The position numbers were made by a program, and so were the translations under genes. Below the pieces are notes generated by a model, which was given only the letters and a program-made list of their open reading frames with translations, was not told the origin of the DNA and did not search any database. A DNA stretch of 64,000 bases from Gammaproteobacteria bacterium (GTDB lineage Bacteria; Pseudomonadota; Gammaproteobacteria; HTCC5015), in the NCBI GenBank assembly GCA_013817245.1, contig JACDDA010000008.1, positions 1 through 64,000 on the forward strand. The letters run 5' to 3'. This document shows positions 3,152 through 29,212 of the stretch, piece by piece. Within the stretch, counting starts at the first letter, position 1. Every line of letters starts with the position of its first letter.

Positions 3152-3669
3152 TTTATTCTCCCGCAGCGATGCCCTAGAAATACGTCAATGTCATTAAAAC
3201 AGCTTTACAAAGTCTACACCATCAGGATTAACGCTGGCTCTTCAAAGTGCTCGCTAAAGCGAAGCAGCTGAACTCTTGATTACTTTGTTTAAAAAAGATC
3301 GCTCAAAATTACAATAATCGACCCAAATAAACTTTCTACAATAAAAACCGCCGCATGATTCTCTTGGCGTAGAGGCAAATGCGTTCTTGGCAATACTTGC
3401 TTTAAAGAATTTTGCAATACACCAAGTTCTGATTCGCACGCCATTGTCATTTGTTAACAGACTTATTACCTGCACATCTCTAAATTAGGAAAACACCTGA
3501 TAATTAAATCAACAAGCTTATATTTAATTTCAATACTCACCAAACATTTTCCCAGAAAATTATCATCTTTCCAAGCCGAGCATTTTCTACTCTACCTGCC
3601 GCTATTTATTTCAAGGAGATAAGTTTATGTCAGAAACCAACACTATGATCGACAAAACGCGATTTGATT
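3152..3669. other. gene-poor interval with one short well-initiated ORF
   Basis: About 520 bases without a convincing gene. Near its right end, on the plus strand, AAGGAG lies seven bases before an ATG at 3627. That ORF (MSETNTMIDKTRFDF...) has only 35 codons, stops at 3734 and overlaps the 3' end of the minus-strand gene at 3670. It may be the stub of a gene whose remainder was lost, or chance. A 73-codon minus-strand frame at 3254-3475 has no ribosome site and no recognisable composition, and I do not call it. Confidence 0.35.
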
Positions 3670-13273: not shown

Positions 13274-15459
13274 CGCACACTGAACTTAACTGCAGACAAT
13301 GTTTTAACTTCTTTAGTGCTTTTTAACCATATGGTCGCACTAAGAGAATATTGGCCGCGACGCACAGGCCATAAATAACGTCCGCCAGGACTGCTTTGCA
13401 ATTTCCCATTAATGCGCCATTCCGTTTTTAAAATATCTTCGGGTTTGTTAATGACAAACTCGAAGTATTGTTTGTTCTGCGGAATACGCGGGTCATACGC
13501 AAGCTGCAAACTCATATTGGGTTGTCGAATAAAATACGTACTGGCTAATTCACCCCACTGTATTTTATTTGTTGGTAGGTAACGTTTATCAAACCATTCG
13601 GGTTCTGCAGCACATTGTTTATCGGCTAAACGCCCATCTTCAATACACACCGAATAACGTACTAAACCGGCACTCATTTTTAAAGCGGCGGTGTCACGAA
13701 AACGATTTAGCTCAGCCATCATCGAACGCACTGCTAATGCCGGGCCTGTCGAACCTGTTAATTCTTGCATCGCTTGTTGATCAAGATCGCCAAACCATGC
13801 ACCGACTAAATAACGATCGTTAAACGCAAGCGTCCAAGCATCACGATAATTCGTTGACGTGCCGGTTTTAACCGCCGTTTGCGACGGATAATTTAATACG
13901 CCTGCATCGGAAAATTCTAAACTCCGAGCTTGTACGTCGGATAAAATATTGGCAATTAATGATGCGGATTGAGCGCTCAGCATTTGAGTATGTTGCATTG
14001 GCTGCGCTTGCAAACTCCGCAACGGCGAATAAACACCTTGGCGCGCCAATACAGAATACGCTTGCACTAATTCATACAAACTCAACTCACCATTACCTAA
14101 CGCTAAACCATCACCATAGACCTTCACCGTTTGTTCAAGATTACGTATCCCAACACGACGTAACCATTGCAACAAATCACTAGCACCAACAAACTGAATG
14201 GTCCTTACCGCCGGCACATTTAAGGAATTTGCCAACGCTTTGCGTAAACTAATCCAACCATAATACTGACGAGAATAATTTCTATAATCATGCTGACCAA
14301 AGCCCACTGCTTCTTTTAAAGGCGCATCGTTAATTCGCGTTGCAGGTGTCCAACCTTTTTCTAACGCTAGCGCATATACAAAAGGTTTAATCGCCGATCC
14401 CGGTTGTCGTACCACTGTTACCGTGTCATACCATTGCGCAGCAGATTTAGCGGAATCTTGTTTTTGATGTGCAACCGCCCACGCCAAAATAGCATTGTCT
14501 TTTAAATCCACGACCAACATACCCGCGGCACTGGCGTTGCGTTTATGTAAGTTATTTAAACGTTGCTGCAAAATTCGTTGCGCTACCGCTTGTATATCAA
14601 TATCCAAGGTCGTGGGCAGACGACCACGCTGTACCCCTGATGTTGGCGGCAAACTGTAAACATGTCGCGCAAAATACTCTGCGCCTTCTGGCGATTTCGG
14701 ATATTCAATGGCGAGTTTTTGTTGATTAATTTTATCGATTAGTGTTTTTTCAATTAGCGCCTGCGCATACATGCGCTTTAATAATTGTGCAATCGCTTTC
14801 TCGACTAAAATAGAGTTTCGATGTAAATCATAACGACCCGGCGCACGTACCAACACCACCAAAGCCAACATTTCTTTTTCATTTAAGGTATCTAAATCAC
14901 GCGCAAAATAATAACGTGCCGCTTGTACAACACCGCGTCGCTGCGCTGCATAAGGCACTTGATTAAAATAAAATTCTAATAACTCAATTTTGCTAAAACG
15001 TTGTTCAAATTGCTTAGCTTCAATTCCTTCTAACCAACGCGACCATAAGGTTCTCTCACGTGGATGCCATAAACGTACTACTTGTTCAGTCAGCGTACTA
15101 GCGCCGCGCACCGCATGACCCGCACGAATATTTTGCCAAACGGCATGGCCACGAGCCCGCCAATCAACACCGTTGTGTTTAAAAAATCGTGCGTCTTCCG
15201 AAATAACTAAGGCATTGACTAAAAAACGGGGCATCTCATGAATCGCGGCTACATCATATAAATTCCACTGATTTTCAAATGTCAGCGTTAAAATACGCCC
15301 GGCTTTATCCGTTAATTGTGGTTTTTGAATATGCTGGTAAACATTCAAACTTTTTGGTGCGGCTTGAATAAAAAAAACAGTCGCAATTAACACGCATAAA
15401 AAAACAGCGGCCAAAGTGGCCGCTGTATAAACAATGACACTTTTATAGTTGACTGCCAT
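13270..15459 (-). CDS. pbpC: penicillin-binding protein 1C
   Basis: Bifunctional class A PBP of the PBP1C type (729 aa). After one N-terminal transmembrane helix (about 8-32) comes the glycosyltransferase domain with EDARFFKHNGVDWRARG and GASTLTEQ. The transpeptidase domain follows with SAIK (S355, K358), SLN and KTGTS, and then a C-terminal BiPBP_C-like beta domain. It polymerises or repairs periplasmic peptidoglycan. Its ATG shares one base with the stop of the alpha-2-macroglobulin gene, so the two are translationally coupled, as in the known yfhM-pbpC pairing. Confidence 0.96.
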   Translation of the reverse strand: MAVNYKSVIVYTAATLAAVFLCVLIATVFFIQAAPKSLNVYQHIQKPQLTDKAGRILTLTFENQWNLYDVAAIHEMPRFLVNALVISEDARFFKHNGVDWRARGHAVWQNIRAGHAVRGASTLTEQVVRLWHPRERTLWSRWLEGIEAKQFEQRFSKIELLEFYFNQVPYAAQRRGVVQAARYYFARDLDTLNEKEMLALVVLVRAPGRYDLHRNSILVEKAIAQLLKRMYAQALIEKTLIDKINQQKLAIEYPKSPEGAEYFARHVYSLPPTSGVQRGRLPTTLDIDIQAVAQRILQQRLNNLHKRNASAAGMLVVDLKDNAILAWAVAHQKQDSAKSAAQWYDTVTVVRQPGSAIKPFVYALALEKGWTPATRINDAPLKEAVGFGQHDYRNYSRQYYGWISLRKALANSLNVPAVRTIQFVGASDLLQWLRRVGIRNLEQTVKVYGDGLALGNGELSLYELVQAYSVLARQGVYSPLRSLQAQPMQHTQMLSAQSASLIANILSDVQARSLEFSDAGVLNYPSQTAVKTGTSTNYRDAWTLAFNDRYLVGAWFGDLDQQAMQELTGSTGPALAVRSMMAELNRFRDTAALKMSAGLVRYSVCIEDGRLADKQCAAEPEWFDKRYLPTNKIQWGELASTYFIRQPNMSLQLAYDPRIPQNKQYFEFVINKPEDILKTEWRINGKLQSSPGGRYLWPVRRGQYSLSATIWLKSTKEVKTLSAVKFSVR

Positions 15460-18400
15460 TAAGGCGCCATTTTCTTATCAACTACCGTAGCAGCGTCACG
15501 CACTTTTAAAGTCGCAGGCGTGCCCTTACCAAACACATCTGGATCATACATTTCTTCTACATTTACCGGCATCACACTGAATTCGCCTTCGGCAATTACT
15601 TGCGCGCTATAGGACACATGATAATTACCTGCCGGCAAATAATCCGAATAAAAACGCACCGCATCATGACGTAGTTCTCTATGATAAAAATTCCAATAAG
15701 AAATGCCATAATCTTGCCAGTCACCAAATTTGAAATACCATGAACCACTCGCAGGTTTAAATGCACCTTTGTCCGTATCGATAGTAGAGCTAGTGGCTAA
15801 ATCACGATTTACAGGTTCCAAACCGCCAGGCACAGGATCATCAATCACAACAAAATGTCTGACCGTAGGCACGGACACATAAATATCCACACGCACTACA
15901 TCACCGCGTTGCAACAACATAGGCGTAGCCAATATTTCCCAGCCATTTTTACGTTCTATACTGTATTCACGATGTACTTCAATGCCGGCATTAATTGCTT
16001 TGCTCGACACTTCCGTATTAGCATATTGAAGACGCGTCGCATAATACATGCGGCCCGTGCCTTCGCGATTAACAGTTAAATTCGTCTTCAAGCCAGATTT
16101 TATTTCGGCTTGAGCATCTTTTAAGGTAACAGCAGGTTGACGCAAATCACTAAAGCTTGTTTTGCCAACCAAGCGTTTCTCTATCATCGCGGTAGCGGTG
16201 AAATTAACCGGATCTTTTTCATAAACTCTGGCGAATTCCAACAAGCTATTCATACAAAACATATTCTCTTGGGTATTTTCCCAATGATCTCTATTACCAC
16301 GACTTTGCGTAATGGCTCGCACCATTTTAAAAGGAATATCGCCAACTTTAGCGAAGCCCTTGTCAGTTACAGCCGTGACTAATAAAGCCGACAACACCGC
16401 ACAATTAGAACGCAAGGGCGTTGTTAATAATTGGCTATAGCCATCAGTCAAGGTTTCGTTAAATTGAAACTTACCGCCCGATTGACTAGCACTCGCTAAA
16501 ATATTATTTAATACCGTAGTTACTTCCGTTGAAGAGCCATCGATTCTATTCGCAGCCATTAATAAATGGGCTTTGCCAAACAAATCCATTTGCGTTGCAT
16601 AAGGAGCGTAACGCTTGATATCACTTGCATCGACCACGCCTTGATCTGCCAACGCGGCTAAAGCCACTGCACGCACCGTTGAAGCCATGCCTTTTGAATA
16701 AAAACTGGGCGCTGAATCTTCGCGTAAAAAGGTTTTTAAATAATCTTGCAGACGTTTCTCAACATCAGCAGGAATATCTTCACCAGCAGCGCGTAACCAA
16801 TTAAATGCTAAAGCCGTATATGCACTTAAATAAGGATCAACGTATTCGTTATTGGCAACCCAATACGTCATACCGCCATTAGGTGCTTGAAAACTTGCGG
16901 CATTGTCTAAGGTAGTTTGAGCTAAGGTTTTCGCATCCGCCCACATTAAGCTATCCGGTAAGTATTGACGCATACCATTGTAATGCGAAGCCATCACCGC
17001 TTTAGTTAAACGTTGCTCCCAACAGGCATATGGATAATCGCGCACATAATCAAATGCACCCGCAACATTGCCTATGACGCTAGGCGAAACAACGACACTA
17101 ATGCCACCGACATCGCTGTAAATATTTTGCGGAAATTGGATAACTTCGGTGACGTGATCTTGAGTCGTAGTGCCGTAATTTGCAGCAGTAATTAACGAAC
17201 GTCGTTTATTAATCGGCAGTTTGTATTCTAAAGCGTCACTGTCCACTGCATCGTTAGCATTCGCTCTGAAAACTAATTGACCCGCTTGTTTAGTTTTAAC
17301 ATTCAACCAAACCGATTCACGTTTATAAGGCAACAAAGTAATCGACTGCTCAAAAGTAGTTTGGCTTTGTGGATCTAACGCGGCACCACTGACGGCGGCG
17401 CGCACGGTTACTGTTTTCGCTTTATCAGTACGATTCATTACCGTAAAGCCCGCTTTAAATTGATCACCTTCCAATGCTTGATTCGGCATCACCGGACGAA
17501 TCTCGATGGGTTGATTGACGGTGAAGCGCGTTTCACCTAAACCCATACGTTCATTGGGCGTAACCGCTAATACAAAAATTCGCCAGCCGGTTAAATTATC
17601 CGGCACTTTAAATTCTATATTCACTTTGCCATTAACAGTTTTAATAGAAGGATTCCAATACGCGACGTATTTTATTAAGTTACGAAAATGTTCATTGGAG
17701 CTCGACAAACCATCACCGCCCGGATTCGCGCCTTTTTTCTCAAACTTTTGCAAACCAACTAATCGCGTCAGAGTATTAAAATTTTTCAAATCCAAAGAAT
17801 CTAATTGATTAAAGCCCGCATAAGGATCGTAATAATCACGCTTCTTGGTATTTAAATCCAAAACAGCTTCATCTAATACTACTACCGCTAATTCAATGGG
17901 CTCTTTTAATACGCTGGCATCTTTGGGATTAACTGTAATACTGGCTTTCACTATTTGACCCGGTTTATAAGTGCTTGCCGTAGTTTTTGCTTTTACTGTC
18001 AACGCACGACTATCATCTTTGACAATTACACGTGCATAACCTATTCGATAAGTAGGTTTACCTAAATCCACACCGGTGGGACTTAACGGTTGCTCGACAC
18101 GCGGCGATGTCACTAAGACCGACACGTACACGCCCGGGAAGTCATCTGGCTTTAAAGGCACTTCAATAATCGGCGTACTCGAATCCAATACTTTGATCCA
18201 TTGACGCATCACGCCATAACGCTCGACCGTGATTAATGCTGTTGCACCTGGAAATGGATTTTTAACTAAGAAGCGTGCGGTTTGACCAATTTTGTAATCT
18301 TCTTGTTCCGCGATCATGCTTAAACGCGCATCATCACTTTGTTCCCACACCACATTGCCTTTACCGCTTACCCACGTATGCGTAGTGGCGCTGTGTTTGC

Positions 18401-21368
18401 GCTTTTGAGTATCTTGAATATTGGCCGTGATTTTATAATAACCAGGATTTTTCGGCGTAAAGTGACAATTACTAATCACCAGTTGCGAGGACGCTTTACA
18501 ATTGGCAACATTCACCCATTCAGTAATATAACGCGTTAAATAAGCATTACCTGCGCCTTTAACTCGCGTTGCTTTAGTCTCTTGATATTCAATGGCAATC
18601 GTTACCGGTGTTGATGATTTTAATTTTCCATCGAGACCAATCACCGCATATTCTACGCGCGCAGGTTTATCTTGCTCATACACCCACTGCGTATTATGTA
18701 ACCCCACAAAACGATCACGGCCTGCGTATTCTGCGCTAACTAATGTAGCAATGGATTTGCCTCTATCATCACTAACCGCAGCCTCCACCTCGAGTCGGCC
18801 ATAAATAATATTATAATCATCCAGCTTTAATACGTCGTTAAGCTCACCCATGTTATTAGAAACGAGTTCTTGCTGATGAATCGTTTGTGAATTTCCATAA
18901 GCATCTGAGCCAAATTCAAAAGATTTTAATTTCGGATCGTTAACAGGAATATCCATCGTTTTTAATTGTACGGTCAGCCGCGTTTTAGCATTCGTATAAG
19001 GCCCGCCTGCATGCAATGCTGCACTCACGCGCATATCTAATTTATCATTAGGTTTAAATTGCTTACCATTCAAATCAGCAGAAACTTTAAACGCCGCAGG
19101 GACAAAATCCGTTACCAACACCGACATGGCCGACAGCGTATCGTCACTGCTTGATGCTTTTATAGAAAATTCATATTGGCCGGTCGTCGCGGCTTTTTCT
19201 AAAACTAATTGATCAGCAAAACTACCGAATTCATTTAAGCTAACATTTTCTTTTTCATAAACGGATTGTCCTTGCGGATCCATTATTTGAATTTTGTAGC
19301 CTTGCTTCGGCGGAGCAACCCAGCGCGTATTACTTTGGTTACGCACATAAATTTTAAATTGAATCGTATCGCCGGGTTTATAAATGCCTTGCGCTGTTGT
19401 ACCCCACGCTTTCATATGACCGTGTTGTTTTTGTAAACTCGGCCATATATCCGACACCGGCACATCAAACTGATTATCTAATGGTAAAACCGCCATATCC
19501 CGGCCATCATCAACACGCAGCATAAAACGCGCATGCTTATCATCATAACTTCTATCTACTATGCTTAATGAAGGATCCAAATTAACAATGCCCGGCAACC
19601 ACGCGCGACCTTGCGCATCGGTTTTAGCTTCCGCTAAAGCTTTGCCTTTTAAATTTAATTCAGTGTAAGCAGTTTGATAAATTTTTAACGTTGCGTTAGC
19701 TACCGGCTTGCCATTATCAAAACGCGTCACCCACGCTAATGAGGAAAAGTGTCCTAATTTCACATGCACCATAAAAGGCGAAATTTGCGTAAAAAATCGA
19801 TGCTGATTTTCATATGAGTTGATCGCAGGAACCGTTTGCAAATGCCCATACAACAAAGCACTTTTGCCCGCTAACAAGGGACGTACATTGAGTGGTGTCG
19901 CAAAAGCCACATCTTTTACTTTGGGTAATGTTAAGCGCGCCGTGCTATGGCCATCGCCTTCTGGAAAAACCACATGATAGCTGACATCAATATAATCAAG
20001 ATTGGTCACATACAGCGGCAATTCGCTATTCACATTTTTTTCTAGCACTGCAATATTATTCGGCATGCGCAAGTCAGGGCTGCGATGCGCCGTGGCAAAT
20101 TTCATATCAACATTATTAGTTAAACTACGGCCAAACTCGTCAACAATTTTTTTATCTATCAATAAAGTGTACAAGCGAAACGCTTTTAAATATTCGGGGA
20201 TCCAAACAATATATTCAGCACCTTTTTCATGCGGCGAATCTAGTCGACTATAGTCTTCTGAATTTTCCCAAGGATCATAATCTTTACGACCACCCGCTAA
20301 ATCGGGTGTTAGTTTCATCGACTTTTTAACTGCACTAGAAAGTACCGGCGCGGTGAATACTAAACCGACTGAAGATAAAGGGTTACATTGCATTTGTTCT
20401 GGCGTTGCATCTTTTGAATTTTTTATATCAGTGGGAGCAATTAATTTCTGCGTATAATTTTTTTCATCAGATTTTTCAGTATTTTTTGCCGCTGCTGCTT
20501 TAACTGTACAGCGCACACCTAAAAACTTAAATGCAGGGAATGTATTAAAACTTACGATGGCGCGTGATTCCTTGCCTTTTACAGGCCCTTCACTGGAAAT
20601 CAAGCCTGGTTTAATCCATAACGCAGTGGTGCTATCCAAGGGTAATTCTTTACTAGGTGCAATCCACCAAATAGTACTAGTCGTTTTATTTCCTGTTGAT
20701 TGCGTCGCGTGTTTTTTTACGGCTACCCAAATGTCAGTAAAGGTACCACTTATCCACGGCTGATCTGCATTTGCTCGTAAATTTTCGGCATCATCAATAA
20801 TGTCCACGGGCACTGAGCGACCATCAGCATCAAATACAAAATTTTCGATTACGGATTCACGAGTTACGGCTTGATTAAATACAACTTGTATGACGGGCAG
20901 GCTCGGCGACAACCATGTTTGAAAATTATAATAATCAACAACGGGACGTTGTGTGTTAAAAACATGTTCATACGCTGTATTTAAAACAGAGCCATCTTCT
21001 GCGGTGATGCCGGCTTTTATTTTAAGCGTATAGTGGTGTGCTAATTTGAAGCGGTTTTTTTCTGTCAACTGACACGCTAATGCACTGGTATTTAACCAAC
21101 GCCATTCGCAATTAATAGTCGGTTCAATCGTAATGCCTAGTTCTTTACTACTAGCAGCCATGTCACCAATAGGTACCACTGGCCGATCAAATTGAATAAC
21201 GATTTGACGTTCGGCAGGAGCGTCATCACCTTCCGGTGTAATACGCTGGATGCGCAGTTCTTTATCTTGTGGCACTAAAGCCGAATCAAATGCACGGGGG
21301 GGTGCGGCTGCGCTGCTGCCCAGCAATAAAATACTACTGATGACACAAACCAAAATACTGCTGCGCAT
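15459..21368 (-). CDS. yfhM: bacterial alpha-2-macroglobulin with thioester motif
   Basis: A giant periplasmic protein (1969 aa) of the bacterial alpha-2-macroglobulin family, thought to trap proteases that breach the outer membrane while its partner PBP1C repairs the wall. The thioester motif CWEQ is at C1449-Q1452, so covalent trapping is likely retained. MG-type beta domains fill the N-terminal two thirds, and a helical thioester domain and receptor-like end follow. The signal peptide ends SSAAA-PPR and lacks a lipobox cysteine, unlike the lipoprotein E. coli YfhM. It is also about 300 residues longer than that protein. AAGG lies six bases before the ATG. It is the first gene of the unit with pbpC. 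Confidence 0.95.
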   Translation of the reverse strand: MRSSILVCVISSILLLGSSAAAPPRAFDSALVPQDKELRIQRITPEGDDAPAERQIVIQFDRPVVPIGDMAASSKELGITIEPTINCEWRWLNTSALACQLTEKNRFKLAHHYTLKIKAGITAEDGSVLNTAYEHVFNTQRPVVDYYNFQTWLSPSLPVIQVVFNQAVTRESVIENFVFDADGRSVPVDIIDDAENLRANADQPWISGTFTDIWVAVKKHATQSTGNKTTSTIWWIAPSKELPLDSTTALWIKPGLISSEGPVKGKESRAIVSFNTFPAFKFLGVRCTVKAAAAKNTEKSDEKNYTQKLIAPTDIKNSKDATPEQMQCNPLSSVGLVFTAPVLSSAVKKSMKLTPDLAGGRKDYDPWENSEDYSRLDSPHEKGAEYIVWIPEYLKAFRLYTLLIDKKIVDEFGRSLTNNVDMKFATAHRSPDLRMPNNIAVLEKNVNSELPLYVTNLDYIDVSYHVVFPEGDGHSTARLTLPKVKDVAFATPLNVRPLLAGKSALLYGHLQTVPAINSYENQHRFFTQISPFMVHVKLGHFSSLAWVTRFDNGKPVANATLKIYQTAYTELNLKGKALAEAKTDAQGRAWLPGIVNLDPSLSIVDRSYDDKHARFMLRVDDGRDMAVLPLDNQFDVPVSDIWPSLQKQHGHMKAWGTTAQGIYKPGDTIQFKIYVRNQSNTRWVAPPKQGYKIQIMDPQGQSVYEKENVSLNEFGSFADQLVLEKAATTGQYEFSIKASSSDDTLSAMSVLVTDFVPAAFKVSADLNGKQFKPNDKLDMRVSAALHAGGPYTNAKTRLTVQLKTMDIPVNDPKLKSFEFGSDAYGNSQTIHQQELVSNNMGELNDVLKLDDYNIIYGRLEVEAAVSDDRGKSIATLVSAEYAGRDRFVGLHNTQWVYEQDKPARVEYAVIGLDGKLKSSTPVTIAIEYQETKATRVKGAGNAYLTRYITEWVNVANCKASSQLVISNCHFTPKNPGYYKITANIQDTQKRKHSATTHTWVSGKGNVVWEQSDDARLSMIAEQEDYKIGQTARFLVKNPFPGATALITVERYGVMRQWIKVLDSSTPIIEVPLKPDDFPGVYVSVLVTSPRVEQPLSPTGVDLGKPTYRIGYARVIVKDDSRALTVKAKTTASTYKPGQIVKASITVNPKDASVLKEPIELAVVVLDEAVLDLNTKKRDYYDPYAGFNQLDSLDLKNFNTLTRLVGLQKFEKKGANPGGDGLSSSNEHFRNLIKYVAYWNPSIKTVNGKVNIEFKVPDNLTGWRIFVLAVTPNERMGLGETRFTVNQPIEIRPVMPNQALEGDQFKAGFTVMNRTDKAKTVTVRAAVSGAALDPQSQTTFEQSITLLPYKRESVWLNVKTKQAGQLVFRANANDAVDSDALEYKLPINKRRSLITAANYGTTTQDHVTEVIQFPQNIYSDVGGISVVVSPSVIGNVAGAFDYVRDYPYACWEQRLTKAVMASHYNGMRQYLPDSLMWADAKTLAQTTLDNAASFQAPNGGMTYWVANNEYVDPYLSAYTALAFNWLRAAGEDIPADVEKRLQDYLKTFLREDSAPSFYSKGMASTVRAVALAALADQGVVDASDIKRYAPYATQMDLFGKAHLLMAANRIDGSSTEVTTVLNNILASASQSGGKFQFNETLTDGYSQLLTTPLRSNCAVLSALLVTAVTDKGFAKVGDIPFKMVRAITQSRGNRDHWENTQENMFCMNSLLEFARVYEKDPVNFTATAMIEKRLVGKTSFSDLRQPAVTLKDAQAEIKSGLKTNLTVNREGTGRMYYATRLQYANTEVSSKAINAGIEVHREYSIERKNGWEILATPMLLQRGDVVRVDIYVSVPTVRHFVVIDDPVPGGLEPVNRDLATSSTIDTDKGAFKPASGSWYFKFGDWQDYGISYWNFYHRELRHDAVRFYSDYLPAGNYHVSYSAQVIAEGEFSVMPVNVEEMYDPDVFGKGTPATLKVRDAATVVDKKMAP

Positions 21369-21417: not shown

Positions 21418-21924
21418 TTACAACGACAATCCGCGTTCATTTAATTCGACAGCGGAGGATTTTATTTTATTGAGTAATAGCATCAGCGTTTCTAATTCTT
21501 CTGTGCTGAGACAAGCAAATATTTTGCGCACATAATCTTCGTGCATTTTTGCCATGGTTTTAAACTCAAGCAAACCTTTATCGGTTAATTTCAAATAATG
21601 CGTGCGCCTATCATCGGGTGACGGCCAACGCTCTACTGAACCATCTTTAACTAAGCGATCTGCGATATTAGTAATGTTGGCATTGGTAACCATTAACCAA
21701 TGTGACAATTCGCCCATGCTTAAACCTTCCGGCGCACGTTCGAGTGCCGCCATCACATCAAAACGTGGCAAGGTAGTATCATGACGAGTGCGTAATAAAG
21801 TACGAATACCATGAGTAATATGGTGTGAACAAGTGAGTAAGCGCAACCAACCACGCAATACTTGCTTACGACCCGCAACATTGCCGAGTTTATCGTCCGC
21901 AAAATCCAATCGGTTTGTTGCCAT
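21418..21924 (-). CDS. MarR family transcriptional regulator
   Basis: A 168-residue winged-helix regulator. LPRFDVMAALERAPEGLSMGELSHWLMVTNANITNIADRL is the helix-turn-helix, and GSVERWPSPDDRRTHYLKLTDKG is the wing with the conserved DDRR. MarR proteins of aromatic-acid operons usually repress until the CoA thioester binds. The gene lies at the far end of the catabolic operon, separated from it by a terminator, so it probably has its own promoter. The likely target is the double palindrome at 26627-26664. Confidence 0.92.
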   Translation of the reverse strand: MATNRLDFADDKLGNVAGRKQVLRGWLRLLTCSHHITHGIRTLLRTRHDTTLPRFDVMAALERAPEGLSMGELSHWLMVTNANITNIADRLVKDGSVERWPSPDDRRTHYLKLTDKGLLEFKTMAKMHEDYVRKIFACLSTEELETLMLLLNKIKSSAVELNERGLSL

Positions 21925-21968
21925 TTTATTTAGCCAGGTTATCTATAAAGAACTTTCACTTTCTAAGA

Positions 21969-21996
21969 TAAAGGCCTGCTGTATGCAGGCCTTTAT
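21969..21996 (-). terminator. terminator of the catabolic operon
   Basis: TAAAGGCCTGC (21969-21979) and GCAGGCCTTTA (21985-21995) form an 11-bp stem with a five-base loop. It lies 26 bases after the acyl-CoA dehydrogenase stop at 22021 and separates that operon from the marR gene. T tracts are short, but the arrangement fits an intrinsic terminator. Confidence 0.75.
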
Positions 21997-22020
21997 GTAT
22001 TTCTATCACTTCAATAATAT

Positions 22021-23181
22021 TTAAAACGCGTTTTCACCCGTTAAGGCCATGCCCACTACTAATTCGTGCACAGTTTGTGTGCCTTCATAGGTGATCACGC
22101 TTTCTAAGTTCAATGCATGACGAATCGCGCTGTATTCTAGTGAAATACCTGCGCCACCCAACATGTCACGTGCATCACGTGCAATGTCGATTGCCATACG
22201 AATATTATTCCACTTCGCCATTGAAACTTGTGCTGGTTGCAATTGGCCTTTGTCTTTCAAACGACCTAAACGCAATGACAATAATTGCGCCATGGTAATT
22301 TGACGCGACCATTCGGCTAAACGAGTTTGAATAGTTTGCGTTTTATTTAATGAACGACCGAACACTTCTCGTGTTTTGGTGTAGTCCAACAATTCTGCTA
22401 AGCAAGCCTGCGCTGCGCCAATACCACCCCAGGTTATGCCATAACGCGCATTGGTTAAACACATCAACGGCGATTTTAAACCTGCCGCTTTCGGCAAACG
22501 CGCAGATTCTGGCAAACGTACATCTTCAAAAAACAATTGTGACGTTACTGATGCACGTAATGACATTTTGTGTTTAATTTCCATCGCCGTAAAACCTTTA
22601 GTATCGGTTGGGACGATGAAACCGCGAATACCTTCTTCGGTATCTGCCCAAACAATCGCGATGTTGGCGATGTTGCCATTGGTAATCCACATCTTCGCGC
22701 CATTCAGAACCCAATCTGAACCAACACGCTTAGCTTTGGTTCTCATGTTTGACGGATCAGAACCACCGTGCGGCTCAGTCAAACCGAAACAACCAATGAC
22801 TTCACCACGCGCCATGCGCGGTAAGTATTGTTGTTTTTGTTCTTCAGAACCAAATTCATAAATCGGATACATGCACAAGCTAGATTGCACAGAAGCAAAA
22901 CTACGCAAACCAGAATCACCGCGCTCTAATTCTTGGCAAATCAAACCATATTGCACGTAATTCAAACCCGCGCAGTCATAACCTTCAATGGTCGCGCCCA
23001 GCAAACCTAAATCGGCCATACCTTTAATTAATTCTTTTGGAAACTTACCTTCTTCGAAGCATTCGCCAATAATCGGCAATACTTTGTCGTCTACAAAACG
23101 TGCAACAGAATCTTGCACCATACGTTCGTCTTCGCTGAGCTCATCACGAACATTGTAAAAATCCATCGGGTTAATCGCCAT
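22021..23181 (-). CDS. acyl-CoA dehydrogenase, glutaryl-CoA dehydrogenase-like
   Basis: An FAD acyl-CoA dehydrogenase (386 aa). Signatures are CFGLTEPHGGSDPS (substrate/FAD site), WITNGNIANIAIVWA, and the C-terminal ITYEGTQTVHELVVGMALTG, where the E of YEGT is the catalytic base. The TYEGT and final TGxxAF pattern is that of the glutaryl-CoA dehydrogenase branch, whose enzymes can oxidise and decarboxylate. It is the last gene of the five-gene operon. In a 2-aminobenzoyl-CoA pathway it would act late in beta-oxidation of the ring-derived dicarboxylic chain. Electrons would go to EtfAB. The precise substrate is inferred. Confidence 0.92.
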   Translation of the reverse strand: MAINPMDFYNVRDELSEDERMVQDSVARFVDDKVLPIIGECFEEGKFPKELIKGMADLGLLGATIEGYDCAGLNYVQYGLICQELERGDSGLRSFASVQSSLCMYPIYEFGSEEQKQQYLPRMARGEVIGCFGLTEPHGGSDPSNMRTKAKRVGSDWVLNGAKMWITNGNIANIAIVWADTEEGIRGFIVPTDTKGFTAMEIKHKMSLRASVTSQLFFEDVRLPESARLPKAAGLKSPLMCLTNARYGITWGGIGAAQACLAELLDYTKTREVFGRSLNKTQTIQTRLAEWSRQITMAQLLSLRLGRLKDKGQLQPAQVSMAKWNNIRMAIDIARDARDMLGGAGISLEYSAIRHALNLESVITYEGTQTVHELVVGMALTGENAF

Positions 23182-23233: not shown

Positions 23234-23623
23234 TTAGCCGTCGATAACGGCAGTGGTTTCAATTTCAATCTTGGCGCGATCTTCCATCAAGGCAACAACT
23301 TGTAACATTGCCATCGGTGGAAAAACCTTACCGAGAACTTCGCGATAAGCTTGGCCAATTTCTTTTTGGCGGCTTATATATTCTTTTTTATCTGTAATAA
23401 AACAAGTCATGCGCACGATGTGCTTAGGCTCTGCACCACCCTCTTTCAACACCGCAACGGTGTTAATTAAGGTTTGTCTAAATTGTTCAACAAAGTCATC
23501 CGTTTCAAATTTGCATTCGGCATTCCAACCGATCATGCCTGCAACATAAAGTGTGTTGCCCGTTTTAACGCCGTTTGAATAACCAAGTGGTTTTGCCCAA
23601 CCTGCGGGTTGCAATACTTGCAT
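23234..23623 (-). CDS. RidA/YjgF family enamine-imine deaminase
   Basis: A 129-residue RidA-superfamily protein (VKTGNTLYVAGMIGWN near the N-terminus; VVALMEDRAKIEIETTAVI at the end). RidA enzymes hydrolyse reactive enamines and imines to ketones and ammonia. The position between two acyl-CoA dehydrogenases in a putative aminobenzoyl-CoA operon suggests a dedicated role in removing the amino group from the enamine formed after ring reduction. Start: GAGG lies upstream of ATG 23623. The RidA-type catalytic arginine is not clear, so it may belong to another Rid subgroup. Confidence 0.85.
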   Translation of the reverse strand: MQVLQPAGWAKPLGYSNGVKTGNTLYVAGMIGWNAECKFETDDFVEQFRQTLINTVAVLKEGGAEPKHIVRMTCFITDKKEYISRQKEIGQAYREVLGKVFPPMAMLQVVALMEDRAKIEIETTAVIDG

Positions 23624-23647: not shown

Positions 23648-24823
23648 TTATTCGCCTGCAAAATCGCTTAAGACTGCGCGGGCAATAATGATTTTTTGAA
23701 CTTCACTTGCGCCTTCATAAATACGCAAAGCGCGAATTTCACGATACAACTCTTCAACCACACTGCCGACTTTAACGCCAAGTCCGCCAAACATTTGCAA
23801 CGCTTTATCAATGGTTTCTTGCGCATGATCGGTTGCATACAACTTCGCCATTGCCGCTTCGCGCGTGACGCGTTCTTGCACGCAATCTTTCGTCCAGGCA
23901 GAGCGATAAACTAACAACGCACTCACATCAATATCTAAAGCCATCTCGGCTAACTTCGATTGCGTAATTTGCATTTCTGACAACGGCGCACCAAACAAAA
24001 TACGTTTAGTCACACGACCTAAGGCTTCATCTAATGCACGTCGCGCAAAACCTAATGCGGCTGCGCCGACAGTGCCACGAAAAATATCTAAGGTGGCCAT
24101 CGCAATTTTAAAACCTTGACCAGGTTTGCCTAACATGCGCGTAGCAGGTACGCGCATGTTAGTAAATTTCAAACGCGCTAAAGGATGAGGTGCAATCACT
24201 TCAATACGTTCTTCGATTTCCAAACCCTGCGTATTAGCGTCTACAACAAATACACTTAAACCTTTTGCACCAGGGCCTTCGCCGGTACGCACAAACACGG
24301 TGTAATAATCGGCAATGCCACCGTTGGAAATCCAAACTTTACCACCGTTGATAATATAATCATCACCGTCTTTAATCGCCGTGGTTTTTAATGCAGCGAC
24401 ATCTGAACCCGCTTCTTCTTCGGTTAATGCAAAGGCAGCAATTTTTTCGCCCGTTGCAACTTTAGTAAGAAATTCTTTTTTAATACTGTCCGATGCAAAT
24501 AAGGACAATGCACCTGAACCTAAACCTTGCATGGCTAACGCAAAATCCGCTAAGCCCGAATAATAAGCCAAAGTTTCGCGCAACAAACTAATGCTACGCA
24601 CATCCAGTTTTTCATTAACGCCGCCGTAAGGCGCAATCACACAATGTTTTAACCAACCTGCTTTGCCCAGTAATTTCACTAAGCGCTTACAAGCTGCGTC
24701 AGTGCCGCCACTGTGATCTTCAAGCTCAGCATGATGCGCTTGGCACCAAGTTTCTAATTCAGCTTTGAGTTGACGATGACTATCATCAAGAAAAGGCCAC
24801 TGTAGATAAGATTTTTCTGCCAT
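23648..24823 (-). CDS. acyl-CoA dehydrogenase
   Basis: A second FAD acyl-CoA dehydrogenase (391 aa). [17 protein letters not shown] and [14 protein letters not shown] form the flavin/substrate region. Near the C-terminus are [40 protein letters not shown] with the catalytic glutamate in YEGAS. It starts one base after the enoyl-CoA hydratase stop and is therefore coupled to it. It likely introduces a double bond into an alicyclic or ring-opened CoA ester and feeds ETF. Confidence 0.93.
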
Positions 24824-24824
24824 C

Positions 24825-25658
24825 TTAATTACCTTCGAATTTAGCTTTTTCTTTATTTACAAAAGCCTGATAAGCACGTTCAAAATCTTTGGTCTTCATG
24901 CAAATCGCTTGCGCTTGTGCTTCCATTTCAATCGCGGTATCTAATGACACATCCCATTCGATATTTAATTGATTTTTAGTCATCGCATGCGCGAAGTTAG
25001 GACCTTCTGCTAAACGCTTCGCCGTTGATTTGGCTTTTTCTAATAACTGATCGGCTGGCACGATTTCATTAAAGAAACCCCAACGCTCGCCTTCTTCCGC
25101 ACTCATGATGCGACCGGTAAATAATAATTCCGAAGTGCGACCTTGACCAATCAGACGCGGCAATATTGCGCACGCACCCATATCACACCCAGCTAAACCT
25201 ACGCGCGTAAACAAGAAACCCGTTTTAGTATCGGGCGTGCCATAACGCATATCAGATGCCATCGCGATAATTGCGCCCGCGCCTACCGCAATACCATCCG
25301 CTGCACAAATAACCGGTTGCGGACAATGACGAATCGCTTTTACTAAATCACCGGTCATGCGTGTGAATTTTAATAAATTACCCATGTCCATATCAGTCAA
25401 AGGCCCGATAATATCTAGCACGTCGCCACCCGAACAAAAGTTGCCGCCCGCGCCAGTGATAATCACGACTTTAATTTCATCGATATAAACTAATTTGCGA
25501 AAGGTATCGCGTAACTCGGCATACGATTCAAACGTTAAGGGATTTTTACGATCAGGACGGTTCAAAGTCACAATCGCAACTTCGCCTTCAACTTCCCACA
25601 AGAAATGTTGCGGCTTAATATCTTTTAAACTTGCATCGCTTACCGTAATGTCTGTCAC
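24825..25658 (-). CDS. enoyl-CoA hydratase/isomerase family protein
   Basis: A crotonase-fold enzyme (277 aa): [30 protein letters not shown] as the oxyanion-hole segment, and [22 protein letters not shown] for the second. Crotonases hydrate, isomerise or hydrolyse CoA esters; alicyclic-ring hydrolases belong to the same family. In the position usually holding the hydratase glutamate the sequence reads [10 protein letters not shown], so the reaction may be atypical. It lies second in the operon, and could hydrate or open the cyclohexene ring intermediate. Confidence 0.9.
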
Positions 25659-25691: not shown

Positions 25692-26486
25692 CTACATTAC
25701 TTCGCCGCCGGAAACCGAAATGGCTTGACCGGTAATTGCATCTGAACCTGCACCACATAACCATCCGACCGCTGTTGCAACTTCCGCAGGTTTTACTAAA
25801 CGTGCTTGTGGATTATCAGCGGTTAACGCTTGTAGTGCTTGCGCTTCTGTTTGGCCCGTTTTGGCCACGATGTTTTGTAAAGAACTGGCGACGATGTCGG
25901 TGTCAGTATAACCCGGACATACTGCATTCACGGTGACGCCTTTACGCGCCAATTCCAACGCCAACGCGCGGGTTAAACCGATCACTGCGTGTTTGGATGC
26001 AACATAAGCCGTCACATACCGATAACCTTTTAAACCAGCGGTGCTAGCAACCGTGACAATGCGCCCCCAACCCGCTTCCACCATCCCGGATATCACTTGT
26101 TGGCAGCACAAAAACACGCCGGTCGCATTCACGTCCATGGTTTTTTGCCAACTGGCTAAAGACGTTTTAGCAAAAGGTGCTGACTCAGCAACCCCCGCAT
26201 TATTGACCAAAATATTGATAGGCCCGAATTGTTTAACGGCGGTAGCAAAAGCGCTTTTAACCGAAGCCTCATCACTAACATCAACTTGCACGCCTTGGGC
26301 TTCAACGCCGGACTGCTCAGCTAATTGAGCCGCTTGCGCCTGTACCCGTTCTTGGTTGCGGGCCATCAAAGTGACTTTCGCACCGGCATCGGCTAATTCT
26401 CGCGCAATCGCCAAACCGATGCCTGTGCCGCCGCCGGTGACCACGGCATGTTTATCTTTCAAACTGGCCAAATTCGCTGTGTTCAT
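25692..26486 (-). CDS. SDR family 3-hydroxyacyl-CoA dehydrogenase-like
   Basis: A classical short-chain dehydrogenase (264 aa). The nucleotide motif is TGGGTGIGLAIAREL (from about 18), NNAG follows at about 97, the catalytic Ser is in VASTAG, and Tyr-Lys is YVASK. It ends in the usual ITGQAISVSGGE. It is probably an NAD(P)-dependent oxidoreductase for a hydroxyacyl- or oxo-cyclohexene-CoA intermediate. It is the first gene of the operon, reading away from the control region shared with the monooxygenase gene. Confidence 0.93.
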   Translation of the reverse strand: MNTANLASLKDKHAVVTGGGTGIGLAIARELADAGAKVTLMARNQERVQAQAAQLAEQSGVEAQGVQVDVSDEASVKSAFATAVKQFGPINILVNNAGVAESAPFAKTSLASWQKTMDVNATGVFLCCQQVISGMVEAGWGRIVTVASTAGLKGYRYVTAYVASKHAVIGLTRALALELARKGVTVNAVCPGYTDTDIVASSLQNIVAKTGQTEAQALQALTADNPQARLVKPAEVATAVGWLCGAGSDAITGQAISVSGGEVM

Positions 26487-26626
26487 GACTTAAATATCGT
26501 CTCGTTTGCTGTTTATTCTGCTTAATAATCAATAGCTAAGCGTTTGGTGACGGCGCGGATCCCGCTTGCAGCGTTAACTTACTGCTGTCACTCAAAAACC
26601 CGCCGTGGTGCAAAATCTACTAGAAA

Positions 26627-26664
26627 TTAGTTTAAACTTAAAATAATATTAGTTTAAGCTTAAA
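26627..26664. promoter_or_regulatory. double palindromic operator, probable MarR site
   Basis: Two 16-mers, TTAGTTTAAACTTAAA (26627-26642) and TTAGTTTAAGCTTAAA (26649-26664), differ at one base and are 22 bp apart, about two helical turns. Each has a palindromic core (AGTTTAAACT; TTTAAGCTTAAA). They lie in the 308-bp gap between the divergent SDR operon and the monooxygenase gene. I infer that the MarR protein binds here as two dimers and controls both directions. The rest of the gap holds the promoters, which I cannot place exactly. Confidence 0.7.
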
Positions 26665-26794
26665 GTAATTCGCGGGTATTGTAAGCTTTGCGGCGATAAG
26701 TTCAAGCCAAAACCCGATCCCGGCTCATCGTGCTGGGGCTATTATCACTCGAATTTTACAGCTGGCGTAAACGTCAACTCACCGGAGAACCAAC

Positions 26795-29212
26795 ATGGCA
26801 AAAGGCCTGAAAATAGTCTGCCTGGGCGGCGGCCCATCATCCTTGTATTTCTCGATTTTGATGAAAAAACAGAATCCAAATCACGATATCACCGTCATTG
26901 AACGCGGTCCGCGTCATGCGACCTGGGGTTTTGGCGTGGTATTTTCCGATGAAACCTTAAAAGGCTTCATGGAAGCTGATGCGCCTACCTACAAGCGCAT
27001 TGTTGAACAGTTTGCGTACTGGTCGGAAATCGACACTGTCATTCATGATAAAAAAATTACTTCTGACGGCCACGGTTTTTGCGGCATGTCACGTTTACGT
27101 TTGCTCAATACTTTCCATGATCGTTGCGATGAACTCGGTGTGAAATTACGTTTTGAAACCGACATTACCAATCTCGATCAATTGGAAATGGATCAATACG
27201 ATTTAGTATTAGCCGGTGACGGCGTTGCATCGATGTTACGCGAAAAATACAAAACCGAATTCGGCGCTGACATGGATTGGCGTGCGAATAAATTTTGTTG
27301 GCTCGGCACCACATTACCACTCGATGCGTTCACGTTTATTTTCCGCAAAAACGAGCACGGCTGGTGGTGGGTACACGCCTATCGTTACGAAGAAGGCATG
27401 AGCACGTGGATTGTAGAATGCTCTGAACAAACCTGGCGTAATGCTGGTTTAGATAAACTCGAAGGCGATGTTGCAAAAACAGAAGCGTTTACCAAAGCGT
27501 ATATGGAAAAATTATGGGCGCCGGATTTAAAAGGACATCCATTAATTACCAATCGTTCTATTTGGCGCACCTTCCCCGTGGTTAGTAACCAAAAATGGTT
27601 CCACAAAAATATTGTGTTAATGGGTGACGCAGTACGTTCAGCGCATTTCTCCATTGGTTCCGGTACCAAATTAGCAATGGAAGATGCAATTCATTTAAAC
27701 AATTCGCTGAAACAACATAGCGATGTACAAACCGCATTACAAAGTTATCAAGATAGTCGCAAACCTGATGCCGATCGTTTGATTCGCACCGCGATTACCA
27801 GCTTGAGTTGGTTTGAACATTTAGATCGTTATGCTGAAACCCAAAGCGCTGAACAATTCACTTTCAATATGTTGGCGCGTTCTAAACGCATCACTTATGA
27901 AAATTTACGTTTACGTGACCCTGCTTACATTAAATCCGTTGATCGCTGGTTTGCTGAAGAAGCCAAAGCGGCGAGCGGCTTTGATGATATCGATTTAGAA
28001 AATCCTACCGTGCCCATGTTTCAACCTTTCAAGATTGGCAATATGCGCGTAGAAAATCGCACTGAGTTATCGGCGATGTGCCAATACTGCGCAACCGATG
28101 GCTTACCGGATGATTGGCATTTGATGCATTACGGTTCGCGTGCAGTTGGTGGTACCGGTTTAATCAATACTGAAATGACGTGCATTTCACCTGAAGCGCG
28201 CATCACTCCCGGGTGCACCGGCATTTGGAATGATGAACAAACGCAACAATGGAAACGCATTGTGGATTTTGTGCACGCACACAGCAAATCCAAAATTAGT
28301 TTGCAGTTAGGTCACGCCGGTCGCAAAGGCTCGACCTGCGTACCGTGGAATGGCGGTATCGATCAGCCATTAAAAGAAGGTGCATGGGAAATTATTGCGC
28401 CGTCCGCGATTCCTTATTTGAAAAACAGCCAAGTGCCACGCGAAGCAACGATTGCTGACATGGATAAATACGTTGCTGATTTTATCAACGCTACCAAGAA
28501 CGCTGAAAAAGCCGGCTTTGATATGATCGAAGTGCATTTTGCACACGGTTATTTATTGTCAGGTTTCATCAGTCCTTACACCAATAAACGCACCGATGAA
28601 TTTGGTGGTTCTATCGAGAACCGTTTGAAATTTCCGTTGCGCGTTTTAAAAGCAGCACGTGATACGTGGCCAAAAAACAAACCTATTTCAGTGCGTATTT
28701 CTGCAACGGATTGGGTTGGTGAAGGTGGTTTAACCGAAGCGGAAATGTTAATCGTTGCGCGCAAGATTAAAGAATACGGTGGCGACATCATTAACGTTTC
28801 AACGGGTCAGGTTACTAAAGACGAACAACCTATGTATGGTCGTATGTTCCAAGTGCCATTTGCAGATCAAGTGCGTAACGAAATTGGTATTCCTACCATT
28901 GTTGCCGGTAACTTCACGACAGCAGATCAAGTGAACACGGTGATTGCTGCAGGCCGTACTGACATCGTGGCATTGGGTCGTCCGATTATGAACGAACCAC
29001 ACTTTGCATTAACCGCCGCTGCGCATTACGGTTTTGATAAACAGTATTGGCCACCGCAATATATCTCCGGCAAATTCGCCGCGAAGATTAAAGCTAAAAC
29101 CGAAAATGCAGATTTGTTGGAATTACGTTTAGCTGCGAAGCCGCCGAAACCCCAAGAAGCGTTAGCGATTGCATTGGCACGGGGTGAGTTACTCGCGAAA
29201 GATAAAAAATAA
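26795..29212 (+). CDS. bifunctional aryl-CoA monooxygenase/reductase (2-aminobenzoyl-CoA type)
   Basis: A two-domain flavoenzyme (805 aa). Residues 1 to about 385 are a PHBH-like FAD monooxygenase (VCLGGGPSSLYFSIL at the N-terminus; GDAVRSAHFSIGSGTKLAMED at about 280). Residues about 405-770 are an Old Yellow Enzyme-type FMN reductase (SAMCQYCATDG, LQLGHAGRKGST, VHFAHGYLLSGFISP, VALGRPIMNEP). This fusion is known from 2-aminobenzoyl-CoA monooxygenase/reductase of Azoarcus evansii and the related salicylyl-CoA 5-hydroxylase/oxidoreductases. The neighbours favour the aminobenzoyl role. It is preceded by GGAGAACC and followed by a terminator. Confidence 0.9.
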   Translation: MAKGLKIVCLGGGPSSLYFSILMKKQNPNHDITVIERGPRHATWGFGVVFSDETLKGFMEADAPTYKRIVEQFAYWSEIDTVIHDKKITSDGHGFCGMSRLRLLNTFHDRCDELGVKLRFETDITNLDQLEMDQYDLVLAGDGVASMLREKYKTEFGADMDWRANKFCWLGTTLPLDAFTFIFRKNEHGWWWVHAYRYEEGMSTWIVECSEQTWRNAGLDKLEGDVAKTEAFTKAYMEKLWAPDLKGHPLITNRSIWRTFPVVSNQKWFHKNIVLMGDAVRSAHFSIGSGTKLAMEDAIHLNNSLKQHSDVQTALQSYQDSRKPDADRLIRTAITSLSWFEHLDRYAETQSAEQFTFNMLARSKRITYENLRLRDPAYIKSVDRWFAEEAKAASGFDDIDLENPTVPMFQPFKIGNMRVENRTELSAMCQYCATDGLPDDWHLMHYGSRAVGGTGLINTEMTCISPEARITPGCTGIWNDEQTQQWKRIVDFVHAHSKSKISLQLGHAGRKGSTCVPWNGGIDQPLKEGAWEIIAPSAIPYLKNSQVPREATIADMDKYVADFINATKNAEKAGFDMIEVHFAHGYLLSGFISPYTNKRTDEFGGSIENRLKFPLRVLKAARDTWPKNKPISVRISATDWVGEGGLTEAEMLIVARKIKEYGGDIINVSTGQVTKDEQPMYGRMFQVPFADQVRNEIGIPTIVAGNFTTADQVNTVIAAGRTDIVALGRPIMNEPHFALTAAAHYGFDKQYWPPQYISGKFAAKIKAKTENADLLELRLAAKPPKPQEALAIALARGELLAKDKK

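Follow-up and report, generated by a model that had tools for sequence, protein, structure and literature searches.

A tandem palindromic repeat beside a predicted anthranilate-CoA gene cluster is probably the operator of a MarR-family regulator

Introduction

Which protein would recognize a nearly exact twin repeat placed between two divergent gene sets, and does the spacing of its halves carry meaning? The question is raised by a contig of a gammaproteobacterium of the HTCC5015 lineage (JACDDA010000008.1, assembly GCA_013817245.1), of which positions 1 to 64,000 were analysed; this whole 64,000 nt stretch is called the window below. Here TTAGTTTAAACTTAAA at 26627–26642 and TTAGTTTAAGCTTAAA at 26649–26664 differ at a single base and lie 22 bp apart, flanked by an SDR gene (25692–26486, minus strand) and a monooxygenase gene (26795–29212, plus strand). 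The original prediction had reported just such a pair of 16-mers between divergent units, which was confirmed. In the open-access literature, which omits most subscription journals, no operator was found for the MarR subfamily concerned, and a search there for tandem MarR operators gave nothing judged pertinent. Comparison with orthologous loci makes it highly likely that the local MarR-family repressor has its operator in the twin repeat and would control a cluster for the catabolism of anthranilate via its CoA thioester.

Flanking genes and predicted pathway

The gene on the plus strand (26795–29212) encodes an 805 aa bifunctional FAD aryl-CoA monooxygenase/OYE-type reductase with PF01494 and PF00724 domains. 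Its best NCBIfam match is NF006101 (salicylyl-CoA 5-hydroxylase/oxidoreductase) with 1047.3 bits, 31 below the cutoff of 1078. Genomic context favours anthranilate over salicylyl-CoA, and the product is likely a 2-aminobenzoyl-CoA monooxygenase/reductase. On the minus strand, a presumed operon starts with the SDR-family dehydrogenase (25692–26486; PF00106/PF13561) and continues with an enoyl-CoA hydratase family protein (24825–25658; NF006107, 467.9 bits, cutoff 330), an acyl-CoA dehydrogenase (23648–24823; PF00441/PF02770), a RidA-type protein (23234–23623; PF01042, E 1.1e-21) and a second acyl-CoA dehydrogenase (22021–23181; PF02771/PF00441). The last gene of this operon is marR (21418–21924, minus strand), whose 168 aa product is the presumed binder (PF01047, E 1.1e-10, 41.6 bits against a cutoff of 24.6). 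Beyond it, at 15459–21368, lies an ORF of 1969 aa that adjoins a PBP1C-like gene and has no NCBIfam match at E 1e-20.

The same set of monooxygenase/reductase, SDR, enoyl-CoA hydratase, acyl-CoA dehydrogenase and RidA genes recurs in many orthologous loci. Kynureninase genes stand beside the orthologous cluster in Aminobacter and Thalassospira, in the latter together with tryptophan 2,3-dioxygenase; since the pathway of these enzymes yields anthranilate, their adjacency favours an anthranilate role. The RidA gene fits 2-aminobenzoyl-CoA catabolism as well, because a RidA protein would suit an enamine intermediate. The flanking genes are thus probably a cluster for 2-aminobenzoyl-CoA (anthranilate) degradation. 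On another contig of this genome (G000:C3:173510–174922), the encoded product is 60 % identical to a protein of genome G017 that is read as a CoA ligase and lies beside the monooxygenase there.

Structure of the twin repeat

The repeat is larger than first described and consists of two abutting 22-mers, 26626–26647 and 26648–26669, identical at 20 of 22 positions (91 %). Palindromes of approximately 16–22 bp are typical of MarR-family operators, and both 22-mers are palindromic. Predicted operator site 1, ATTAGTTTAAACTTAAAATAAT, pairs at 9 of 11 positions around a dyad at 26636.5; predicted operator site 2, ATTAGTTTAAGCTTAAAGTAAT, pairs at 10 of 11 around a dyad at 26658.5. A third 22-mer, starting at 26637 and centred between the two sites at 26647.5, also has 10 of 11 pairs, and the register of the palindromes is therefore taken from the conserved ortholog motif described below. 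The 10 bp palindromic core claimed in the original prediction is centred approximately 3 bp off these dyads. Its reading as AGTTTAAACT was rejected, since its counterpart in site 2 is an imperfect palindrome and the centre of the conserved motif lies 3 bp away from it.

Chance was gauged with 2000 dinucleotide shuffles of the 308 bp divergent intergenic control region (26487–26794). A tandem 22 bp repeat with at least 20 of 22 identities arose in none, nor did abutting 22-mers with at least 9 pairs each; a single 22-mer with at least 10 pairs arose in 14. The pattern WTTANTTTAARYTTAAANTAAW matches exactly at the two sites and nowhere else in the 2.27 Mb genome, though the pattern was itself derived from those sites. 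The looser WTNNTTYANRYNTRAANNAW, taken from the ortholog motif, matches exactly at eight places in the genome among the matches listed, two of which are these sites.

A motif shared by orthologous control regions

Orthologous loci were gathered from a scan of genome contigs (38 loci), a search of the class in which 16 of 369 genomes matched (that of the window included), longer stretches from ten of these class-search genomes and 15 plasmid records. Plasmids aside, this gave 50 loci in 25 clusters once duplicates had been removed, together with one locus that lacked a gene start and two that retained the reductase half alone. A palindromic motif was trained on the sequence preceding the monooxygenase gene, 350 bp at most, in one member of each of the 25 clusters, with the window excluded.

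The resulting motif, printed as the consensus ATATTTTAgATcTAAAATAT, has a log-likelihood ratio of 185.9, compared with 35.2–44.5 in 12 shuffled sets. Site 1 (25.2 bits) and site 2 (22.6 bits) are precisely its two top matches over the 64 kb window, where the third scores 14.9 bits; within the intergenic region, nothing besides the two sites reaches 5 bits. Among 5000 versions of the intergenic region shuffled by dinucleotide, a single one held one site of at least 22.6 bits, and none held two. When the whole window was shuffled by mononucleotide 200 times, the best score averaged 15.8 bits and reached at most 23.2, above the score of site 2. A stretch of 64 kb could thus, on rare occasions, yield site 2 alone by chance. 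For the loci themselves, control sequence gave 3 sites of at least 12 bits in an 854 kb mononucleotide shuffle and 14 in the reversed sequences. With each cluster left out of training in turn, 20 of the 25 clusters had a member with more than 12 bits ahead of the monooxygenase, a test that is only partly independent in that the sites had been chosen with the full motif. The search for a common motif upstream of orthologous operons, proposed alongside the original prediction, was thus positive.

Spacing of paired sites

Given 10.5 bp per turn, the 22 bp between the two dyads amount to approximately 2.1 helical turns, near a whole number. The geometry permits two dimers on one face of the helix with cooperative control of both promoters, as was first proposed, and such an arrangement is possible. 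Orthologous loci do not conserve the spacing. Where two sites of at least 12 bits lie within 200 bp of each other, seven clusters and four plasmid loci space them at 14–16 bp, three clusters at 55–59 bp, and one cluster together with one plasmid locus at 135–152 bp. An extra overlapping match, 7 bp off, occurs in one plasmid locus, and many loci carry a single site of at least 12 bits. Overlapping doublets of 14–16 bp, which would put two dimers on roughly opposite faces, recur in L045, L047, L054, L065, L069–L072, L080, L082, L089 and L090.

Placement differs as well. Alphaproteobacterial clusters 4, 5 and 10 have the same divergent gene order with one site near each start codon: the monooxygenase start follows its site by approximately 26–68 bp, and the SDR start has one no more than approximately 20 bp away. 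Both dyads of the window lie mid-region, 136–172 bp from the two start codons and farther than in most relatives. Across the 369 genomes of the class, a pattern for the 22 bp doublet matched in one, namely this genome at this operator, and its backward control also in one; a pattern for the 14 bp doublet matched in three, the two inspected having it just upstream of the monooxygenase, and its control in four. Because the backward controls match as often, these genome-wide counts alone indicate nothing beyond rarity.

It is nearly an even call whether the repeat is a MarR operator whose dimers act independently, or whose second site merely raises local occupancy, so that the 22 bp spacing has no meaning. 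The diversity of ortholog spacings and the many single-site loci speak for such independence. Against it, the two sites are near-identical and abut exactly, which would suggest a recent duplication kept in phase. The reading that gives spacing a role, which we put forward tentatively and at somewhat below even chances, is that one operator word serves a MarR subfamily which, in Alpha-, Beta- and Gammaproteobacteria alike, guards the catabolism of anthranilate-CoA, and that this word has been rearranged by lineage. Some lineages would keep one operator near each divergent start and others the overlapping 14–16 bp doublets on roughly opposite faces; here, alone among the loci searched, the word would form an in-phase, abutting, shared central switch approximately 150 bp from both starts.

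Association with the MarR-family regulator

The nearest solved chain to the MarR protein of the window is 3boq_A (E 7.9e-22), and the MarR proteins of orthologous clusters are 36–51 % identical to it over the matched part. The stretch V-[ST]-[NG]-[GA]-N-[VI]-T, presumed from its place in the protein to be the recognition helix, is present in 31 of 34 MarR rows, the window included. The monooxygenase of the window is approximately 70 % identical to those of two Woeseiaceae loci, L003 and L006; its MarR is 44–46 % identical to theirs and groups apart from them, on a long branch. This mismatch suggests that the catabolic cluster is a mosaic.

A profile built from the cluster MarR proteins found a regulator of this type in 33 of the 50 loci, and all 33 have a site of at least 12 bits near the monooxygenase, SDR or marR start. 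The association is partly circular because monooxygenase upstream regions had served to train the motif; the training sequences included none of the plasmid loci and none of the sites that precede SDR or marR in L003, L006, L010, L065 and L068. When the fixed motif was applied to the 15 plasmid loci, each of the eight with a cluster-type MarR had a site (14.1–27.9 bits) no more than approximately 150 bp upstream of the monooxygenase; for each locus, no more than one shuffle in 1000 scored as high. A site was present in two of the seven plasmid loci lacking this MarR, one of the seven encoding a more distant MarR. Of the 50 loci, 17 lack the cluster-type MarR in the piece examined, and 7 of these have a site of at least 12 bits ahead of the monooxygenase; two of the 7 are pieces shorter than 4.5 kb, and short pieces also make up several of the 10 without a site. 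Among those with the motif and no such MarR in the piece are L015, L030, L031, L036 and L038, where the motif upstream of the monooxygenase is strong and a MarR may be encoded elsewhere, and plasmid loci L082 and L085. In L011, which has no MarR, a 12.1 bit match approximately 1.5 kb from the SDR start was not counted as a site.

The eight-locus cluster with the closest monooxygenases (69–72 % identical) has no site of at least 10 bits ahead of the monooxygenase gene, over stretches of up to 350 bp (83 bp in L008). Six of the eight lack marR in the piece examined; the two that bear it have sites before SDR and marR (L006) or before marR (L003). In the window, nothing resembling the operator precedes marR itself (best 1.6 bits in 21925–22120). 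No site of at least 12 bits was found beside the candidate CoA ligase of this genome (best 9.9, L099). On the Sinorhizobium meliloti plasmid locus L091, a 22.2 bit match at 3628–3647 lies approximately 220 bp upstream of a gene for an AMP-binding protein, and a CoA ligase may therefore join the regulon there. The motif is absent from the three actinobacterial loci scanned, two of which are annotated with PaaX-type regulators, the third being unannotated.

These distributions bear on whether the sites are bound by some other regulator of this pathway, with MarR linked to the cluster for another reason. The loci that keep the motif without a cluster-type MarR in the piece examined, plasmid loci L082 and L085 among them, would fit this explanation, yet it is unlikely: the motif accompanies the MarR in 33 of 33 and 8 of 8 loci and is missing from the actinobacterial loci, including those with annotated PaaX. 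The symmetry of the sites also suits MarR dimers, which, according to PMC5487221, insert their recognition helices into successive major grooves of a palindrome. The twin repeat is very probably the operator of the MarR encoded at 21418–21924, because the motif is conserved together with marR in orthologous clusters and the sites lie between the divergent units. In this respect the original prediction of a MarR operator between divergent units is strongly supported by motif–marR conservation, its core register excepted.

Motif matches elsewhere in the genome

This genome is AT-rich, and matches of 25.0, 23.2 and 23.2 bits were found in two of eight further stretches examined. They lie beside or inside genes read as flagellar and upstream of a gene read as mraZ. 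A wider regulon in this genome was considered and set aside, as in the eight stretches inspected, among the matches listed, the adjoining genes have no evident link to the pathway. The strong matches elsewhere are taken as chance for this reason and because the DNA is AT-rich. It is most improbable that the repeat has no dedicated binder and is either a tandem duplication due to chance or AT-rich DNA of a promoter or UP element, for although the sites are AT-rich and equal scores occur elsewhere in the genome, neither the tandem repeat nor the abutting palindromes arose in any of the 2000 shuffles, and the same motif is prominent in plasmid loci of 55–71 % G+C.

Promoters and proposed mechanism

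A promoter scan of the region returned one candidate, TTGAAC-16-TACAAT towards the SDR operon (26678–26705, minus strand). With 0.9 such candidates expected from shuffled sequence, this single one is no better than chance, and the scan located neither promoter. If genuine, the candidate would set the operator just downstream of its −10 element.

For the MarR operator, the following course can be proposed. By analogy, each 22 bp palindrome would take one MarR dimer, and the abutting sites would then hold two dimers side by side between the divergent promoters, covering 44 bp. From this single doublet the two dimers could block both promoters. An early pathway compound, probably 2-aminobenzoyl-CoA, would release them; pathway context and characterized MarR proteins point to an aryl-CoA as the ligand. 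As marR ends the presumed minus-strand operon, the circuit would be autoregulated. Binding, repression, ligand, cooperativity and control of both promoters by one doublet are thus what we infer for this locus. According to PMC5487221, MarR regulators can act as repressors of divergent units, and several are responsive to aryl-CoA.

The operator word is now tied to a MarR subfamily, which makes its regulon predictable in many proteobacteria. If operators have indeed been rearranged by lineage, spacing would set the sharpness with which the pathway switches, and the natural range of spacings offers a ready comparison for the effect of operator geometry on a MarR switch.

Comparison with known regulators

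In Arthrobacter sp. Rue61a, a plasmid stretch likewise carries genes for an anthranilate CoA ligase and a 2-aminobenzoyl-CoA monooxygenase/reductase, and PaaX-related regulators are said in PMC3534580 to control quinaldine degradation. It differs from the window in having PaaX-related regulators in place of MarR, and the motif is absent from its 16 kb locus. Another regulator to compare is IadR (MarR_73) of Variovorax, described in PMC9613470 for indole-3-acetate degradation, where a MarR dimer has a site upstream of the degradation genes and is released by a pathway compound. That route ends at anthranilate and the ligand is the free acid indole-3-acetate; the likeness drawn here is one of function.

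CouR, FerC and HcaR (PMC5487221 and PMC9594313) resemble the window in that a MarR-family gene accompanies genes for CoA-dependent aromatic catabolism and the operator is palindromic. Repressors of this type respond to aryl-CoA thioesters, and release by a CoA thioester would be expected in the window by analogy. They differ in serving another pathway, and the MarR of the window matches CouR weakly (6c28_A, E 1.1e-6). Set beside these systems, the MarR repressor and its operator are of a known kind, and the 22 bp spacing variant, with its shared central doublet, is the sole unusual part.
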